Source: Kaistella chaponensis
GTDB taxonomy: Bacteria > Bacteroidota > Bacteroidia > Flavobacteriales > Weeksellaceae
Length of the DNA stretch: 64,000 bases
Direction: 5' to 3'
Assembly: GCF_900156725.1 (NCBI RefSeq)
Contig: NZ_FTOI01000010.1
Coordinates: 1 to 64,000, forward strand
Part shown: piece after piece, positions 2,171 through 44,101 of the stretch
Position numbering within the stretch: the stretch's first letter is position 1
How the letters are laid out: every line of letters begins with the position of its first letter
The notes under the pieces: model-generated
What the model was told of the DNA's origin: nothing
Database searches by the model: none
What the model saw: only the letters and a program-made list of their open reading frames with translations
Made by a program: the position numbers and the translations under genes

Positions 2171-3889
2171 ATGAAGAAAATTTTATTTTCGTTATTCGTG
2201 ACGGCGGCGTTATGTAGCACCGAGACCATGAAGGCGCAAACAGTTTTGTTTGAAGACAGTTTCGAAACTTACGCTGATTTTGCAATTGCAAATGTTGGCA
2301 GTTGGACACTTACCGATGTTGATTTAAAGACAACTTACGGTTTTACTGGGGTCACTTTCCCAAATACTCAGTTAGCAAAATCTTTTCAGGTTTTTAATTC
2401 TACCACTACTACACCACCTTTAACACCTTCTGCTACTTCTAACTGGACGGCAAATACAGGACAAAAAGTAATGGTATGTTTCGCAGCTGATTCTGCACCG
2501 TGGAATAATGACTGGCTGATTTCTCCGCAAGTACAATTGACTGCAGGATTGGGAGCAACGGTTAGTTTCTTTGGAAAAGGTTGTGATGCAACTTATGGCC
2601 TAGAAAAATTTAAAGTATTGGTTTCTACCACAGGAACAGCAACTGGAGATTTCACTGCAATCTCTCCGTTGATTACTACTCCAGCTACTGCGGCATGGTC
2701 ACAGTACACCTATGATTTGAATGCTTATTCTGGTCAGCAAATATATATTGCAATACAATGTACTTCAGATGATCAGTTTGGATTTGCCGTTGACGATTTC
2801 AAAGTTATTACAAACCCTCTTCCTGTAAGTGCTCCTAATTGCGCAACACTAGTGACGCCAGTTAATGCAGCAACAGGAATTAATTACTTAAGTCCAGCTA
2901 CTTTAACTTGGACAGCTCCAACAACAGGTTCAGCTCCTAGTAGTTATGATGTATATTTTGGTACTACTACAAACCCAACTACTTTATTAGGCAATACCAC
3001 CGGTACAAGTATAGTTACTTCAGCACTATCACCTTCCACACCATACTATTGGAAAGTAGTTCCTAAAAATTCTGTAGGTTCTGCAACTGGATGTACTGAA
3101 TTTTCATTTACCACAAGTGCAAATTTATTTGCGCCATATTGTGGACCATTGATTTATTCCAGCGGAGTTGAGCCAATCACTTCAGTTGTTTTTGGTGGCA
3201 TGACCAATACTTCTGCTGCTGCAATAGGAGGAACTGCACATGAATCATTTGTGAATAAGATTGCAAATGTAAATCGAGAAGGAAGTTTCCCAATTAAATT
3301 ACAGGGGAATACTGATGGTGCTTCTTTCACCACCAAATTTATTGTATTCATCGACTGGAACCAAGATGGTGATTTCTTAGATGCTGGCGAAACTTATTTC
3401 GACACGGCAGCTACAACAATTCAGGTGGTAGGATCTACAGGAGTTGATGGAAAAGAGGCCATTGGAAATATCGTAGTTCCTGCAGATGCGCTTCTAGGAA
3501 ATACAAGAATGAGAATTAAGAAAAATTTCGGTAGTACTACTTTTTATCCTAATCCTTGTTCTTCTGCAGGTACTCTTGCAGCAGGAACAAATACAGGATA
3601 TGGACAAGCTGAAGATTATACCGTAAATGTAGGAGCTAAATTAGCAGTATCTTCTGCTACTAAATCTCAGTTATCAGTATATCCAAACCCAGTAAAAGAC
3701 GTATTGAACATCAATTCTAACGATCAGAAAGTTACCCAAGTAGCATTCTATTCTATCGATGGCAAATTGGTGAAAACCATAAACCAAGATGTTAAAAACA
3801 TCAATGTAAATGATCTTCCAAAAGGAGTATATCTTGTAAAAGTAAAATCTTCCGGAACCGAAAAATCATTTAAAGTAGTTAAAGAATAA
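2171..3889 (+). CDS. T9SS-secreted adhesin-like protein (choice-of-anchor J, FN3, GEVED)
   Basis: This 572-aa protein is probably exported and attached to or released from the cell surface by the type IX secretion system. Seen: signal peptide at residues 1-23 ending MKAQ; a jelly-roll 'choice-of-anchor J'/cleaved-adhesin domain at about 25-215 with WNNDWLISP; a fibronectin type III domain at about 220-318 (SYDVYFGTT, YYWKVVPKN); a GEVED domain at about 385-495 (FIDWNQDGDF, GQAEDYTV); and a C-terminal Por sorting domain at about 500-572 beginning VYPNPVKD and ending in KGVYLVKV. Its role, adhesion or carbohydrate/protein binding, is inferred from these domains. It is monocistronic with its own terminator. 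Confidence 0.85.
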   Translation: MKKILFSLFVTAALCSTETMKAQTVLFEDSFETYADFAIANVGSWTLTDVDLKTTYGFTGVTFPNTQLAKSFQVFNSTTTTPPLTPSATSNWTANTGQKVMVCFAADSAPWNNDWLISPQVQLTAGLGATVSFFGKGCDATYGLEKFKVLVSTTGTATGDFTAISPLITTPATAAWSQYTYDLNAYSGQQIYIAIQCTSDDQFGFAVDDFKVITNPLPVSAPNCATLVTPVNAATGINYLSPATLTWTAPTTGSAPSSYDVYFGTTTNPTTLLGNTTGTSIVTSALSPSTPYYWKVVPKNSVGSATGCTEFSFTTSANLFAPYCGPLIYSSGVEPITSVVFGGMTNTSAAAIGGTAHESFVNKIANVNREGSFPIKLQGNTDGASFTTKFIVFIDWNQDGDFLDAGETYFDTAATTIQVVGSTGVDGKEAIGNIVVPADALLGNTRMRIKKNFGSTTFYPNPCSSAGTLAAGTNTGYGQAEDYTVNVGAKLAVSSATKSQLSVYPNPVKDVLNINSNDQKVTQVAFYSIDGKLVKTINQDVKNINVNDLPKGVYLVKVKSSGTEKSFKVVKE

Positions 3890-38913: not shown

Positions 38914-39234
38914 CAATTATGCGACCCTAGGTTAAGTGATTTCCATAGTACTCCGAAAATATCGCCCAAATGAACGTTTGTGCGACGAAAATTTTGTTCA
39001 TTTTCTTTTTTTCGCAACTTTTTCTTTTAAATTTAAGAGTGAAAATAAATTTTAATGTTTTTTCCGACTATAAAAATAAAATTAAGATCAAATAAAAAGT
39101 CCTTTAGCCAAGGGCTAACTCCTTATTTTTAATTAATAAATAATAATATTAAATACGTTATAATATTAGAAGGGCTGTAAAACCACTCGAAAAGCTTGTA
39201 AATACAGCGTTTTATGACGTTCTCTGGGAAAAAC

Positions 39235-39410
39235 AGTGGGGGTAATGGTGATATTGAGTGGGGGTAATAAGGAAATGCAGTGGGGGTAAAAGAACATTGA
39301 GTGGGAGTAATAGGACTTTCGCTGGGGGTAAAAAGGAAATGTGGTGGGGGTAAGAGATGTTAGGAACATTGAATGGGGGTATCATTGTTAGGAACATTGA
39401 ATGGGGGTAG
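39235..39410. repeat. Iteron array, candidate plasmid replication origin
   Basis: Eight direct repeats of the 11-bp core AGTGGGGGTAA start at 39235, 39257, 39279, 39300, 39321, 39343, 39372 and 39400. The first six are 21-22 bp apart (two helical turns) and the last two 28-29 bp. Copies 4 to 8 have one or two changes; copies 7 and 8 share the longer TTAGGAACATTGAATGGGGG. This is the standard arrangement of Rep-binding iterons. The surrounding AT-rich DNA (38914-39234, 39411-39700) could be the melting region. Confidence 0.85.
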
Positions 39411-39706
39411 TAGTATTAGGATTCAACTTCTTCAACACTATTATTTCTATTGACTTTATATTGAATGCTTTATATCCCATGTTTAATACTCTTGCTTGCC
39501 TATTAATAGGCTTTTACATCTGTCGTTCGTTCGAATGACTATTGCTTTGTCTCACGAAATTGGATTTGAATCCCATTATTACCTTCTATTTTTAAAAATC
39601 TTTCGTATTACTCTATCATTTTACCTTCTTTTAATCAGAGCATTCAACTGACCTGTCTACCATTCATCTACTTTTATCTTTATGACAATTAATAAACGGA
39701 ACATCC

Positions 39707-39795
39707 AGTGGGGGTAATAACCGGACATTCCTGTTTATACTGTATTTAGTTCATGTCTGACATCCAATAAAATTGGGAAAATTGAGTGGGGGTAA
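39707..39795. repeat. Outlying iterons near the rep gene's 3' end
   Basis: Two further exact AGTGGGGGTAA copies lie at 39707-39717 and 39785-39795, the second 10 bp from the rep stop codon. An inverted copy, TTACCCCCATT, is inside rep at 40217-40227. Outlying copies may act in handcuffing or autoregulation. Confidence 0.7.
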
Positions 39796-39804
39796 ATAGT
39801 CTTA

Positions 39805-40935
39805 TTACAACTGTAATTCATTACATTTATCAACAAACCATTTTAGATAGTCATTACCCGTAATCTCTTTGTCTAGACGACTTCGTGTCACTTCACTCAT
39901 CTTCTCATAACCCTGTTCTTTAAACTTTGCTACTATGTAAACAAGCTGCTTTTCATTCAGCTTTCTCGATTTCTTTATATATTTCAAAGCGTTCTTTGCA
40001 CGGTAATCATCAGCTGAAGGGTATTCAACAAAAACCGTATTTTTAGTTTCATAAAGAGAAAAAGTTAAAGTATCCTCGGTAATCTTATATCCGAAAGATA
40101 TATTTCCAATCTCATTTAATTTTTTCTGAATGCCATTCAAAAATATAGTTAACTTCGATTTTTTCAGATAGTGACTCGCAAGAGATAAGTCTTCTACGAA
40201 TTTTGAAATTTTTATATTACCCCCATTCATTTTCCCAAACTTTTTCTTTAGATAAAGGTATATATTCAAAGGCATCGTTGAAGGAGTCGAGAATAAAATG
40301 CTTCTATACACTTTTGAATATCCATCAATATTATTAAGTAACATTCGGGAAGTAGCTTTAGAAATATAGAAACGAATATAATTTTGTCCTTTATTGAAGA
40401 TCGGGGTTTCAATAAAATTTGTTATTAAAAACTCCTCTCCTGTGTTAGATTTAACCGTATGGTTTCCTAAAGTTTTTAGAATTTTTAACTGTTCATGAAA
40501 CACACTGTTATCTTTAACTTTTATGTTACCATTATCATTGAGAGCTTGTGTAGGAATAATCATTTGAAGCATACTGAAATTGTCTGCAAAAAAACTTTCT
40601 TCTATTACTGCCAGTTTTTTTCCTGATTCTAATATTCTCCTTTTTTCAATCTGATCTGCTTTAATATCTTCCAAAGATGTAATTCTACCGTCCTTGTAAA
40701 CCATATCGTTTGAAATAATCTCTTTGGTTTCATCGATACTAATTTTATGAACCTGCGCAGACTTCATCATTTCCATCATTACATAAATAATACGGTGACC
40801 GAAAATATTAATTTTCTTAAGTGGTTCTACTCCACCTAAAAAATCTATTAATTCATTTGGATAAAGCGTTACTAATTGCGCTTCATACGAATCCAGTGTT
40901 TTGGTTACGCTGTTCTTATTGTTTTTCGCTTTCAT
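39805..40935 (-). CDS. Plasmid replication initiator, Rep_3-like
   Basis: The 376-aa product shows two winged-helix-type halves as in Rep_3 initiators: an N-terminal region with FGHRIIYVMMEMMKSAQ and LQMIIPTQALND, and a second with GYSKVYRSILFSTPSTMPLNIYLYL (first part cited) and KISKFVEDLSLASHYLKKSK. Rep binds iterons, here the GGGGGTAA array just beyond its 3' end, to open the origin. The start ATG overlaps the stop of a small upstream gene (ATGA), so its translation is coupled. A chromosomal position suggests an integrated plasmid. Confidence 0.8.
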   Translation of the reverse strand: MKAKNNKNSVTKTLDSYEAQLVTLYPNELIDFLGGVEPLKKINIFGHRIIYVMMEMMKSAQVHKISIDETKEIISNDMVYKDGRITSLEDIKADQIEKRRILESGKKLAVIEESFFADNFSMLQMIIPTQALNDNGNIKVKDNSVFHEQLKILKTLGNHTVKSNTGEEFLITNFIETPIFNKGQNYIRFYISKATSRMLLNNIDGYSKVYRSILFSTPSTMPLNIYLYLKKKFGKMNGGNIKISKFVEDLSLASHYLKKSKLTIFLNGIQKKLNEIGNISFGYKITEDTLTFSLYETKNTVFVEYPSADDYRAKNALKYIKKSRKLNEKQLVYIVAKFKEQGYEKMSEVTRSRLDKEITGNDYLKWFVDKCNELQL

Positions 40936-41186
40936 GAAGATGATTTTAAAAATGGTCGGAAGGAAAAGTCAGTTACGGGATTGTTTTTGTCAAAAATACA
41001 ATGATAATCTGTTGTTTTAGTATTTGCGTAATAAGTACTCTTATCTATAAAAACTTTGATCCATAACCAGTTCTCAAGAGTATTGGCAAGTTTTGCGGGG
41101 GTGTACACCTTATGGTAATAGGCGGTCTTTTTTGTATCTGTAAAATATACTACACAGAAAAAACCTTGACTTTCGGTTGTTTTCAT
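40932..41186 (-). CDS. Small protein translationally coupled to rep
   Basis: This 84-aa protein (MKTTESQGFFCVVYFTDTKK start at 41186) is unrecognised: a beta-rich N-terminal half with VYFTDTKKTAYYHKVYTP, then WLWIKVFIDKSTYY and a short Ser-rich tail. A second possible ATG at 41219 would add 11 basic residues. It ends with an ATGA overlap with rep. In several plasmid families such a leader gene couples rep translation to copy control, and a candidate antisense RNA lies over the 41219 start. Confidence 0.6.
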   Translation of the reverse strand: MKTTESQGFFCVVYFTDTKKTAYYHKVYTPAKLANTLENWLWIKVFIDKSTYYANTKTTDYHCIFDKNNPVTDFSFRPFLKSSS

Positions 41187-41203
41187 AAATTTTCGTATCT
41201 TTG
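41177..41203 (+). promoter_or_regulatory. Rightward promoter inside the rep-leader gene
   Basis: TTG at 41177-41179 and TATCTTTG at 41196-41203 match the -33 and -7 boxes with 16 bp between them. The promoter points away from rep, and no rightward protein gene follows. Confidence 0.55.
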
Positions 41204-41207
41204 ACTT

Positions 41208-41264
41208 AGGAAAAAACATAGAAATATGTTTAAGGATGCCTGATTTATCAGGGGTCCTTTTTTA
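41208..41264 (+). ncRNA. Candidate antisense (ct)RNA against the rep leader
   Basis: From the predicted start near 41208 a transcript of about 55 nt would contain a small hairpin ACATA-GAAA-TATGT (41216-41229) and then a terminator hairpin AAGGA..CCTGA/TCAGG..TCCTT (41232-41259) followed by six T. It is antisense to the leader of the small gene coupled to rep. Alternatively, read on the minus strand, AACATA-TTTC-TATGTT-TTTT would be the terminator of the parA operon. Both may be true. Confidence 0.5.
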
Positions 41265-41819
41265 TTCTAACTCTCCATATTTATTTTTCAACTCTTTAAT
41301 CATATCATTCATAAAAGATTCTTTGGTGAAACTTCCCAAAATGTCTCCACTTTTGGTATAAATGTAATCATATATATAATCAACTTCATTTTCAATCAAA
41401 CTGAATGATGTTGTTACTTTTTCTTTCAATTCGGTTCCATTTGACACCCTTCCGCGACGAGTCGGAATCATACCTGCAGGACGATTTTTTAATTTCGGGC
41501 CTTTCTTTCTTAGTAATGCTATTCCTTCCTTTACTACGTCGGAAGATGTAAAATAAGAAAATTCAGAACCTTGTCTTCGTTTCTCAAATTCTAATCTCCG
41601 GATATAATTAATGTTCTCGGCTTCCGAAACAAAAGAAAAATTAAAAGATTTCTCTTTTGTCTTTGACGGCTTAACAGGCACTGAAATTATTTCTTGAACT
41701 ACTTCAACTTGTTTTTCTACAGGTTCGGCCTGCATTTTTTGAAATACATTTTGAAGTTTCAAAGATTGGCTACTACTCTCCTTTTTTTTACCAAAATTGG
41801 TCAAAACTTTATCTTTCAT
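41262..41819 (-). CDS. Putative partition partner of ParA (centromere-binding)
   Basis: The 185-aa product is unrecognised by family but has the design of a small ParB-like partner: a Gln/Lys/Val-rich flexible N-terminus (about 1-65), a central basic segment with RPAGMIPTRRGRVSNGTELK near 118-137, and a C-terminal helical part KESFMNDMIKELKNKYGE. The start overlaps the parA stop by 4 bp (ATGA). Small DNA-binding partners downstream of a ParA are normal for plasmid partition operons. Function is inferred from context. Confidence 0.55.
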   Translation of the reverse strand: MKDKVLTNFGKKKESSSQSLKLQNVFQKMQAEPVEKQVEVVQEIISVPVKPSKTKEKSFNFSFVSEAENINYIRRLEFEKRRQGSEFSYFTSSDVVKEGIALLRKKGPKLKNRPAGMIPTRRGRVSNGTELKEKVTTSFSLIENEVDYIYDYIYTKSGDILGSFTKESFMNDMIKELKNKYGELE

Positions 41820-42574
41820 ATCATCTTCTTTTTTAGTTCTTTAACCAGATCTTTAAAATCCTTACTTGCTCTACTTTTACTGTCGATCTGAAATATGGTT
41901 TTACCCTCTTTAATTGCTTTTTTAATATTTACATCTTGGCGAACAAAAGTTTTCAGTAAATAATCTTTCGTGAATTCATTGGATAAAAAGTCATTATAAT
42001 AGGAACGAAAATCGCTCGAATTAACTAAAACTGAATTAAAGAAAAATCCTAAATACTCAAAATCTAAATTATGTTTGGCTTTTAAATTTAGCAGTGATGG
42101 AATTAATGAAGTAATTCCTGCCAGCGAATATTCATCATCCTTAATTGGACTTAAAACATAGTCTGAGGCACAAACAGCAACCTCTCCTAAACTTAGCTCG
42201 TCATTGAGTGGTTTCGGTGGGCAATCGATCAAGATATAATCAAAATAATCTTCTAAAAGTTTTATACTTTCTTTTAAAGCATAACGATCTATTTTATAAC
42301 TTTCCAATTTTTCAGATCCTGCCAAAACATAAACGTTATTATGTTCACTTTTTTGAGTAAACTCCAAGCCTTCTTTTTGTTCCAAAAAATCTACCACAGT
42401 GTAGGGAAAATCTTCATCAAGCTTGTAGCCCAAAGAAAGATTTTTCTGGCTGTCAAAGTCAATCACCAAGACCTTACTCCCTTTTTTTGCAAAACTGGCC
42501 GCTAAGTGTATGGTGGTTGTCGTCTTCCCTACTCCACCTTTCTGTGTTAAAACGGATATAACTTTTGTTTTCAT
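41816..42574 (-). CDS. parA: ParA-family partition ATPase
   Basis: The 252-aa product has the deviant Walker A motif QKGGVGKTTT at residues 11-20, VLVIDFDSQKNLSLG near 35-49 and IDCPPKPLND near 117-126. It has no N-terminal HTH and is therefore of the short ParA (type Ib) kind. It would position plasmid copies on the nucleoid. It is followed by a small partner gene, and upstream AT-rich repeats may hold the partition site or its promoter. Confidence 0.9.
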   Translation of the reverse strand: MKTKVISVLTQKGGVGKTTTTIHLAASFAKKGSKVLVIDFDSQKNLSLGYKLDEDFPYTVVDFLEQKEGLEFTQKSEHNNVYVLAGSEKLESYKIDRYALKESIKLLEDYFDYILIDCPPKPLNDELSLGEVAVCASDYVLSPIKDDEYSLAGITSLIPSLLNLKAKHNLDFEYLGFFFNSVLVNSSDFRSYYNDFLSNEFTKDYLLKTFVRQDVNIKKAIKEGKTIFQIDSKSRASKDFKDLVKELKKKMI

Positions 42575-42580
42575 TTAAAG

Positions 42581-42815
42581 TATTAATTATAATGCAATTC
42601 GTGGGTAAACTCCCGATAGTAGAAAGATCAAATCCCACCAAATTATCATTCAATCCTGTAAATATAATAATTTTAGTTAAGTACTCATTACTTTTTTTAC
42701 TCATTTAGTTATTTATTTATTAAAATAAATGAAGACGATTATATCTTCATTTTTTGTTGTTCTAATCTTCCAGTATTGTAAAATCTTTGACAATACATTT
42801 CTCAATTTGAGGAAA
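42581..42815. repeat. Duplicated segment, left copy
   Basis: This region matches 43417-43645 with an offset of about 828-838 bp. Shared blocks include ATTAATTATAATG, TTTTAGTTAAGTA(C/T)TCATT, TTTAGTTATTTATTTATT, AATGAAGA(C/T)GATT and ATTGTAAAATC. The right copy ends in the 3' end of the 43592 gene; the left copy ends in a 24-codon fragment of a similar gene. Confidence 0.8.
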
Positions 42816-42836
42816 GGAAATGTCAAAAAAAGTCAT
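42762..42836 (-). pseudogene. 24-codon fragment of a paralogue of the 43592 gene
   Basis: The minus strand reads MTFFDISFPQIEKCIVKDF then TILED. Its last residues match the end of the 43592 protein (EKCIVKDFTILED versus HQKYTVEDFTIIEN, given by eye). The ATG overlaps the stop of the lipoprotein gene (TAATG), so it could be translated by coupling. It is most simply the residue of a tandem duplication that left only the 3' end. Confidence 0.55.
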
Positions 42837-43417
42837 TAATTATTTTTATAGATAAAAGATAAATTAGCCCAAAAAACTTCATCATTTTTTTTGGTCATTG
42901 CAGATGGGCTTTCAAAAGTATTATTTCCAAAAATATCTTTATATTTTGTTATTCCTAATTCAGTAGTTTTTTTAGTAAAAACACTTGAATCATCTAATTC
43001 TTTTATTATGTAATAAAATGATTTATACAACGCAAGTTTTTCATTTTTTTTATCTAAAATCCCAACAAAAACTTTATCGGCAGAAATATAAATAGAGTCA
43101 TTAGATAATTCTACTTGATAATTGATAGGGTTTTTTCCTAAATGAAACTGAAGGGATTTATTTTTTAGGTTAAGTTCAATTTTACTATACGGAGGTTCAG
43201 AATAGGAACTCCAATAATTTGGAATAATACTTTCTGGTGGAGTTTCTTTCACTCCTAAAGGACCTTTATATAAGACTATTTCATTTACCTTATAGGAATT
43301 GTCATAAATAAAATTGTAAGAAGTCTTTTCAGGCACTATTGTTCCAGTTGGATCATCATTTCTGCTACAAGAACTCATAGCCAAAGTGAGAAATACTAAA
43401 TTTATTATTGTTTTCAT
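42836..43417 (-). CDS. Hypothetical lipoprotein, 193 aa
   Basis: The product has a lipoprotein signal (MKTIINLVFLTLAMSSC, Cys17) and a beta-rich mature part with YNFIYDNSYKVNEIVLYKG, IELNLKNKSLQFHLGK and LALYKSFYYIIKEL. It lies between the two copies of a duplicated segment, so it may have arrived with or been trapped by that duplication. No family is recognised. Confidence 0.6.
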   Translation of the reverse strand: MKTIINLVFLTLAMSSCSRNDDPTGTIVPEKTSYNFIYDNSYKVNEIVLYKGPLGVKETPPESIIPNYWSSYSEPPYSKIELNLKNKSLQFHLGKNPINYQVELSNDSIYISADKVFVGILDKKNEKLALYKSFYYIIKELDDSSVFTKKTTELGITKYKDIFGNNTFESPSAMTKKNDEVFWANLSFIYKNN

Positions 43418-43645
43418 GATTAATTATAATGTGTGAACAAGTCTTCTATAACAGGAAATAGCCAATTAAATTGTCATTCGGGTCTGTAAATATAAACATT
43501 TTAGTTAAGTATTCATTACTTTTTTTATTGATTTAGTTATTTATTTATTATAAAAAATGAAGATGATTTTATCTCCATTTTTTTGGCAGTTCTAATTTTC
43601 AATTATTGTAAAATCCTCTACAGTATATTTTTGATGCTCTGCAAT
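43417..43645. repeat. Duplicated segment, right copy
   Basis: This is the counterpart of 42581-42815 and includes the leader of the lipoprotein gene and the last 17 or so codons of the 43592 gene. A weaker third copy of the AT-rich part (TTCGTTATTTATTTG...AATGAAGATG) is at about 44924-44960. Confidence 0.75.
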
Positions 43646-44101
43646 ATCTTTATTCCAGAAATTAGTCAATTGGTATTCTAAAGCACTTTTTAAAGCGCTA
43701 TTATAAACCCATTCGGGTAAAGTAATTTTAAATTGTGGCTCATCTTCCACTTCGGTTATATCCTCCACCGTTGCAATCTTACTGTTGGGTAAGAAAAGCC
43801 AAATATCATTTACTTTGTCAAAACTTTTCAACCTGGCTTTAACTGCTACTTTAGTAGACTTCTCCCCTTTGTCATACAATGCTGAAAGCATTGTAATCAT
43901 TTTTTGTGGTGCTGGATCTTTGATCTCCATTAGTTTACTGTTCCAAAAATCATTGTCAATCAACAATTTTTCGCCCTGAATTTCCAACTTAGATAGCGGA
44001 ACAAAGAAAGTTTCCTCCTTACCAACTTCATCCACAAATGCTGATATTAAAATAGCGTTTTCTGTTCTTTTCTTTTCTGTAAATACTTCAAATGTTTTCA
44101 T
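43592..44101 (-). CDS. Hypothetical protein, 169 aa
   Basis: I do not recognise this soluble protein. It begins MKTFEVFTEKKRTENAILIS and has beta-strand segments TFFVPLSKLEIQGEKLLID and VAVKARLKSFDKVNDIWLFLP, ending KYTVEDFTIIEN. A shortened copy of its C-terminus survives at 42762. It belongs to a run of leftward plasmid-type genes, each with an AT-rich leader containing TAAATAAATAACTAAA-like sequence. Confidence 0.5.
   Translation of the reverse strand: MKTFEVFTEKKRTENAILISAFVDEVGKEETFFVPLSKLEIQGEKLLIDNDFWNSKLMEIKDPAPQKMITMLSALYDKGEKSTKVAVKARLKSFDKVNDIWLFLPNSKIATVEDITEVEDEPQFKITLPEWVYNSALKSALEYQLTNFWNKDIAEHQKYTVEDFTIIEN

Follow-up and report, generated by a model that had tools for sequence, protein, structure and literature searches.

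In plasmids of Proteobacteria and Firmicutes, the control of copy number by antisense RNA has been studied extensively, and the antisense RNA CopA is a molecule of two stem-loops. In R1 and other IncFII plasmids, rep expression is described as following the translation of a leader and not the product of that leader (PMC5304414, PMC5883639). For the ctRNAs of repABC plasmids, a length of 55–59 nt and the induction of a terminator by pairing have been reported (PMC10194956, PMC3155836). The REx-C elements of Pseudomonas are presented as a putative antisense RNA with a leader gene, repI, that are exchangeable between Rep families; according to the same source, some members have no leader gene, and the repI product is dispensable and variable (PMC5304414). 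For plasmids of Bacteroidota, whose messages are described as being without Shine-Dalgarno sequences (PMC6847099), our searches of the open-access literature showed no described case of antisense copy control, in agreement with an earlier note on the present DNA.

We analyzed a candidate for such a system in the window, that is, the whole stretch of 64,000 nt, which is part of a 131.8-kb contig of a draft genome. The genes of the locus follow one another leftward in the order parA, parB-like gene, 75-bp gap, 84-aa gene, rep and iteron-like repeats. parA (41816–42574, minus strand) and the parB-like gene (41262–41819, minus strand) lie upstream of the small gene (40932–41186, minus strand) and point in the same direction. 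The small gene has no known family, and its stop overlaps the start of rep (ATGA, 40932–40935), as the earlier note had stated. rep (39805–40935, minus strand) encodes a probable replication initiator of 376 aa, and the iteron-like repeats downstream of it (39215–39798, plus strand), with a GTGGGGGTAA core and mostly 21–22 nt spacing, form the probable origin. On the strand opposite the genes, an antisense block read from the sequence (41177–41265, plus strand) spans the 75-bp gap and the start of the small gene.

The Rep protein shared 27–29% identity over about 230 aa with the annotated initiators of three other Chryseobacterium plasmids; a single BLASTP comparison with an annotated initiation protein gave E = 1e-21 (29% identity, 228 aa). 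No convincing family was found for it in Pfam (none above the cut-off), NCBIfam or PHROGs. Its AlphaFold model was too poor to use (pLDDT 44), and a Foldseek search with this poor model, in which the F-plasmid RepE took rank 1 at E = 0.011 with none at 0.001, gave only a hint. The role as replication initiator is probable, on good but indirect evidence, since annotated relatives exist and iteron-like repeats lie behind rep. An inverted iteron-like copy, TATTACCCCCATTCATTTTCCC, was also seen by eye inside the rep coding sequence (40215–40236).

The rightward promoter, two hairpins and T6 that the earlier note had predicted were all found at 41177–41265. The promoter, TTG-N16-TATCTTTG (41177–41203; TTG at 41177–41179 and TATCTTTG at 41196–41203), is of the Bacteroidota −33/−7 type. 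The flavobacterial −7 box is reported to be located at −12 to −5 (PMC9723704), and therefore +1 would fall at A41208; with the T-run as its end, the predicted antisense RNA would have about 56 nt (41208–41263, plus strand), compared with the previously estimated 55 nt or so. TAGGAAAAAACA (41207–41218) makes up its 5΄ tail together with a portion of the first arm of hairpin 1. Hairpin 1 (41214–41231, AAACATA-GAAA-TATGTTT) has 7 bp and a GAAA loop, and hairpin 2 (41232–41259) has 11 bp with one mismatch, both being supported by folding and covariation; T6 (41258–41263) forms a rightward intrinsic terminator with hairpin 2. The segment 41209–41265 folded at −20.5 kcal/mol (z = −5.5), and none of 200 shuffled sequences was as good. 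As proposed earlier, the RNA would be antisense to the leader of the small gene, and it spans the alternative small-gene start ATG (41219–41217, minus strand).

Several general searches were made for this block. An E. coli-type promoter scan, uninformative in this case, did not choose the TTG/TATCTTTG pair, which is the expected outcome in Bacteroidota. Rfam models applied to 39000–44000 gave two matches to other families, both far below the gathering score and attributable to chance. By a chance rule of our own (TTG-N14-20-TANNTTTG, then a strong terminator within 75 nt), the antisense block was the one match on both strands of the 64-kb window, and 4 of 20 order-1 simulations had one match (mean 0.2). 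The block is modestly unusual as a single sequence; its conservation makes it far beyond chance.

We compared this layout with the described systems. The predicted layout resembles the one described for the R1 CopA/tap-repA system, an antisense RNA against a leader upstream of a small frame that is coupled to rep. In contrast to R1, the small frame here encodes an 84-aa protein that is conserved and under purifying selection, and a further short frame may precede it; no separate rep promoter was seen, the Rep is a different one with iteron-like repeats downstream, and the phylum and promoter type differ. No homology to CopA-type RNA was found by Rfam over 39000–44000, and none to RepA families by Pfam on Rep. 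The predicted RNA also resembles the alphaproteobacterial repABC ctRNAs (RepE, incA, inc-alpha), which are described as antisense RNAs of about 50–59 nt encoded opposite a single operon, in the interval that separates its par genes from rep (PMC6090056, PMC10194956, PMC3155836). Unlike in repABC plasmids, the initiator here is not RepC by Pfam (none above the cut-off; the second type of Rep has Rep3_C), a coupled small gene intervenes, and the RNA has two stem-loops. No induced terminator was seen by eye in the folds. REx-C is alike, by its description, in having an antisense RNA and a coupled small gene before non-homologous initiators (PMC5304414), but the small protein is conserved here, whereas repI is variable. 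By analogy, the system would work like R1 CopA/tap and the repABC ctRNAs, and we file it under neither because homology to R1 and the repABC initiator type were looked for and not found.

Searches with DNA and protein gave relatives in Chryseobacterium plasmids and Kaistella genomes, including a C. taklimakanense plasmid that carries a different Rep, and genome searches gave more distant loci. We considered 13 loci encoding the same small protein of 81–89 aa (the window, L001–L007 and L014–L018; L008–L013 repeat six of these and were counted once), which form six sequence groups by eye. The promoter and hairpins, which the earlier note had suggested looking for in related plasmids together with covariation, were present in all of them, each with an RNA-model match. 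Its sequence runs TANNTTTG-NNN-TAGGAAAAAACA, followed by the remainder of hairpin 1, hairpin 2 and the T-run of the block. TANNTTTG (TA..TTTG) was kept with varying NN in 10 of the 12 distinct rows and was replaced by TANNTTCG in L016 and L018, which are copies from a single contig. Both the 3-nt gap from the −7 box to TAGG and the whole of TAGGAAAAAACA were constant in 13 of 13 rows. The −33 TTG was less constant by eye, with a spacer of 15–20, and none was seen in L002 and L014. The invariance of TAGGAAAAAACA exceeds what an incompatibility-determining or pairing RNA would need; hairpin 2 varies.

Gene order was also compared. The order parA, second gene, antisense block and rep, with the small gene lying between, was observed in the window and L001–L004. 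parA lies upstream also in L014/L015 and in the loci of L016 and L017; in L006 it was recognized by its start pattern only, and the annotation upstream in L005 shows only a ParA fragment. The Rep proteins of L005, L014 and L049 contain Rep3_C, and an hhalign comparison of window-type with Rep3_C-type Rep gave a probability of 0.22 on a scale of 100, both profiles being shallow. The control block thus seems, from these sequences, to move between initiators without detected similarity.

When ten other sequences were folded, the best fold of each had the same two hairpins, and between 0 and 2 of 200 shuffled sequences were as good. Alignment A6 had 13 rows (12 of them distinct) and was fitted to a model made from five of these. 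In it, standard pairs filled 99.1% of 223 cells, compared with 85.1% in shuffles, and double changes occurred in 10 of 19 pairs (28 cells), neither count being reached in any of 500 shuffles; slid structures, used as a control, paired at 34–63%. These counts cover related sequences and the fitted alignment leans towards the structure, yet free folds agree with it. A plain unfitted alignment misaligned hairpin 2, and its consensus therefore contained only hairpin 1, in which double changes affected 2 of 7 pairs. All cells of hairpin 1 (100%) were paired, with both sides changing in the two inner pairs and five pairs invariant, and 8 of the 12 pairs of hairpin 2 showed double changes.

We then considered the strand on which these hairpins are maintained. 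Hairpin 1 has no G·U pairs and does not discriminate between the strands. The cells of hairpin 2, read rightward, comprised 112 Watson-Crick pairs, 25 G·U, 0 A·C and 2 others, where a rightward G·U pair is a leftward A·C mismatch and cells count sequences, not independent events; moreover, the folding energy was lower rightward than leftward in 11 of 11 sequences. Because of the 25 G·U to 0 A·C and the better rightward fold, hairpin 2 is, on this comparative evidence, maintained as a rightward RNA and not as a leftward terminator. The hairpins might nevertheless be the leftward terminator of the par operon, possibly a bidirectional one, beside an accidental rightward promoter: they stand directly behind the parB-like stop, and the leftward strand also folds into two hairpins, with TTTTTTCC after hairpin 1. 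This is very improbable, as the G·U pairs of hairpin 2 occur only on the rightward strand, and a T-run of five or more T stands rightward in 13 of 13 rows, whereas AAACA follows leftward. In addition, hairpin 1 is in the window an A-T stem with one C-G pair, TANNTTTG is kept while its NN varies, and a leftward stop would sever rep from the sole upstream transcription in sight. One case that the earlier note had set against its own proposal, hairpins conserved only as the leftward parA terminator, is contradicted by the T-run, the G·U pairs and the better rightward fold. We consider it almost equally improbable that hairpin 1 is a DNA site, namely a palindromic operator to which either the small or the ParB-like protein would bind. 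Its lack of G·U pairs and its invariant outer arm would fit an operator, but compensated variation occurs in its inner arm and loop, hairpin 2 changes yet stays paired with G·U in a way that a DNA site does not explain, and no second copy within 3 mismatches was present in the window. These comparisons establish, at the level of sequence, a gene for a structured rightward RNA that is under selection, carries promoter-like and terminator sequences and is linked to the small gene.

To describe the distribution of this gene, we searched 320 genomes of the host family. The protein profile found 11 places in 10 genomes, and RNA model R2 matched exactly these 11 with scores of at least 66 bits, its one further match (41 bits) being a terminator-like site >1 Mb into a contig. 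RNA model R1 had some match at E = 0.1 or better in 76 of the 320 genomes, and its weak matches therefore mean nothing; 20 weak R1 loci (42 bits or less) were examined, and the 18 with sequence resembled ordinary terminators, none with the TAGGAAAAAACA tail. The small-protein profile gave two true matches, both from the window's family, and one spurious match in 296 genomes of the order, and no match in viral contigs. Five of 72,556 PLSDB records encode the small protein, all from Chryseobacterium. The exact promoter-plus-tail pattern had two matches in viral contigs and matched 2 of 395 phylum genomes, one of them the window; read backwards as a control, it matched 7 of the same 395 genomes, and thus the pattern alone says little. 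The three matches outside the window were rejected, having neither the two hairpins and T-run nor the small gene. The block most likely represents a conserved RNA family, without an Rfam match above the threshold, and a copy-control antisense RNA gene.

Some individual records deserve mention. The PLSDB gene table, which is incomplete by its own account, shows the small gene in one of the five records (L001–L005). One contig (G083:C2) carries a near-identical control block and small gene twice, 61 kb apart (L016 and L018). The small gene of L016 is not followed by a long rep frame, and the rep of L015/L089 (G225:C11) has an in-frame stop.

As a control, we examined other plasmids of the family with Rep3_C, namely 30 of its 55 Rep3_C places, 23 of them with a frame at least 300 aa long. 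The sequence covered was up to 220 nt ahead of each frame (four loci have less upstream), and three of the 25 places outside the control are loci of the present type. An antisense TTG-N15-23-TANNTTTG before the Rep3_C frame was found in 0 of the 30 control loci, and the −7 box alone in 4 of them. Antisense control as a general trait of the family's Rep3_C plasmids was accordingly rejected (0 of 30 loci examined among 55 places). In several small Rep3_C plasmids of the family, a sense TATATTTG-like box was seen by eye shortly before rep. Two Elizabethkingia anophelis plasmids have a Rep3_C-type Rep that is 60–61% identical to that of the C. taklimakanense plasmid, and they are without the small gene. 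In both of them (L049 and L050, each at 2860–3030), an antisense TATCTTTG box was seen by eye within 24–33 nt of the rep ATG, and the gap directly before rep contains a GAGA..TCTC inverted repeat and a stronger hairpin, in sequence unrelated to the block of the window; the T-run is clear in L049 and weak in L050. Model R2 does not match L049 or L050. The plan of an antisense RNA over a leader seems to be kept in these two plasmids, while the sequence and small gene are not, a lead that comes from two sequences.

We further analyzed the small gene and the region before it. Its stop overlaps the next start (ATGA or TAATG) in all loci except L017, in which 1 nt lies between them. Purifying selection was evident in three close pairs (dN 0.015 to 0.035, dS 0.26 to 0.53), and because of this, the small protein probably has a function of its own, unlike repI. 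The protein of the window had no family match in Pfam, NCBIfam or PHROGs, and its AlphaFold model was discarded as too poor (pLDDT 49). The highest 19-aa hydropathy was 0.23–0.59 in seven sequences, a soluble-like range.

At the alternative start, a leader frame (MFFPKSKIRKF, 41184–41219, minus strand) begins with the ATG at 41219 inside the antisense target and is in frame with the small gene. The earlier note had already pointed to this start; its place inside the target was borne out, but among 11 loci compared, an in-frame 11-residue extension from this position is confined to the window's own group (the window, L001–L003 and L006). L005, L007, L016 and L017 have instead a separate short frame whose stop overlaps the small-gene ATG (ATGA), and the short frame ends 1 nt (L004) or 3 nt (L014) before the small-gene start; that of L016 opens with TTG. 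When seven loci were shuffled, a leader-frame rule (ATG or TTG at the conserved block) held for six, L014 being the exception, with a product of probabilities of 0.0004 to 0.004, a rule that was chosen after looking at the data. This pattern suggests a leader peptide, and is suggestive only. The distance from the small-gene start to the end of the invariant block was 43 nt in L016, 46 nt in L017 and 19–26 nt in the others; 43 and 46 nt are far for direct occlusion of the small-gene start.

We consider it probable, at roughly three chances in four, that the block is a cis-encoded copy-control antisense RNA that blocks translation of the leader, and hence of the coupled small gene and rep. The rep message, probably from the par operon, would carry a leader complementary to the RNA, and more plasmid copies would make more antisense RNA, which would pair with the leader over the first start codon (41219). 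Pairing would block translation of the leader or extended small gene; rep would not be translated when the leader is blocked, because stops and starts overlap, and replication would fall. In this scheme, we infer transcription, pairing, coupling, rep repression, copy control and incompatibility. Judged by sequence and covariation, the locus has the feature of the copy-control class, namely a short structured RNA that is encoded against the rep leader and has a promoter and terminator of its own. Least certain is the exact step that is blocked (leader start, RNA cleavage or attenuation). Blocking the antisense site in the folded messages did not clearly alter how accessible the small-gene start is, nor did it, by eye, produce a terminator. 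The two simplest alternatives are therefore not favored, and the leader-start step, with its suggestively supported frame, carries the model that is left as most likely. The main mechanistic rival is the same antisense RNA acting by transcription attenuation or RNase cleavage, as in the repABC ctRNAs. The apparent order par-antisense RNA-rep and the predicted size of the RNA match repABC as described (PMC10194956, PMC3155836), and the distances in L016 and L017 are long for simple occlusion. We regard this as rather unlikely, since the leader frame and overlaps point to translation; against attenuation, folding 11 loci with a blocked antisense site gave no terminator-like hairpin with a U-run as judged by eye, and in L004 and L007 a strong hairpin (−14.9) covers the small-gene start with and without the antisense RNA.

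In the hok/sok system, an antisense RNA lies over a leader coupled to a small gene. By analogy, the present RNA could be the antitoxin, the 84-aa protein the toxin and the leader mok-like in a type I toxin-antitoxin system. Such a system is very doubtful here: it calls for a small hydrophobic membrane peptide, whereas hydropathy, the only property considered, gives a soluble-like protein; the protein of the window has no match in Pfam, NCBIfam or PHROGs; and a stop that overlaps or abuts the next start is not explained by a toxin. As a tentative extension of leader-mediated copy control, which may well not hold, the antisense RNA, the short MFFP leader and the conserved 84-aa protein might form a portable cassette between the par operon and different initiators. 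Translation would be relayed through two overlapping frames to rep, the 84-aa protein would be an active partner (e.g. in RNA pairing), and the iterons would act as a second control; this would be the first antisense-RNA copy-control module of Bacteroidota plasmids. If true, copy control through the leader would offer a natural system for RNA control of coupled translation in bacteria without Shine-Dalgarno sequences, define an incompatibility determinant for Weeksellaceae plasmids and provide a compact part for tuning copy number in Bacteroidota vectors. A small protein family that the incomplete PLSDB gene table lists for one record of five is also named.

Finally, we searched for the promoter of the rep message. 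Leftward TTG-N14-24-TANNTTTG was found nowhere within 1.2 kb upstream of the small gene in 11 loci, except at parA in L014, and nowhere between 38.0 and 44.5 kb of the window, including the parA-rep interval. Of seven loci scanned, only L014 had a sense TTG..TANNTTTG for parA, and by eye the only candidate at parA of the window was a TATATTTA-type box. The rep message is likely to come from read-through of the par operon, and the RNA would therefore act on rep independently of par. Two copies of an intergenic stretch of 116 nt, 87% identical (42640–42755 and 43468–43583), were also noted, the copies preceding parA and the next gene upstream (42836–43417), and a TATATTTAC-type box in this duplicate could be the parA promoter.
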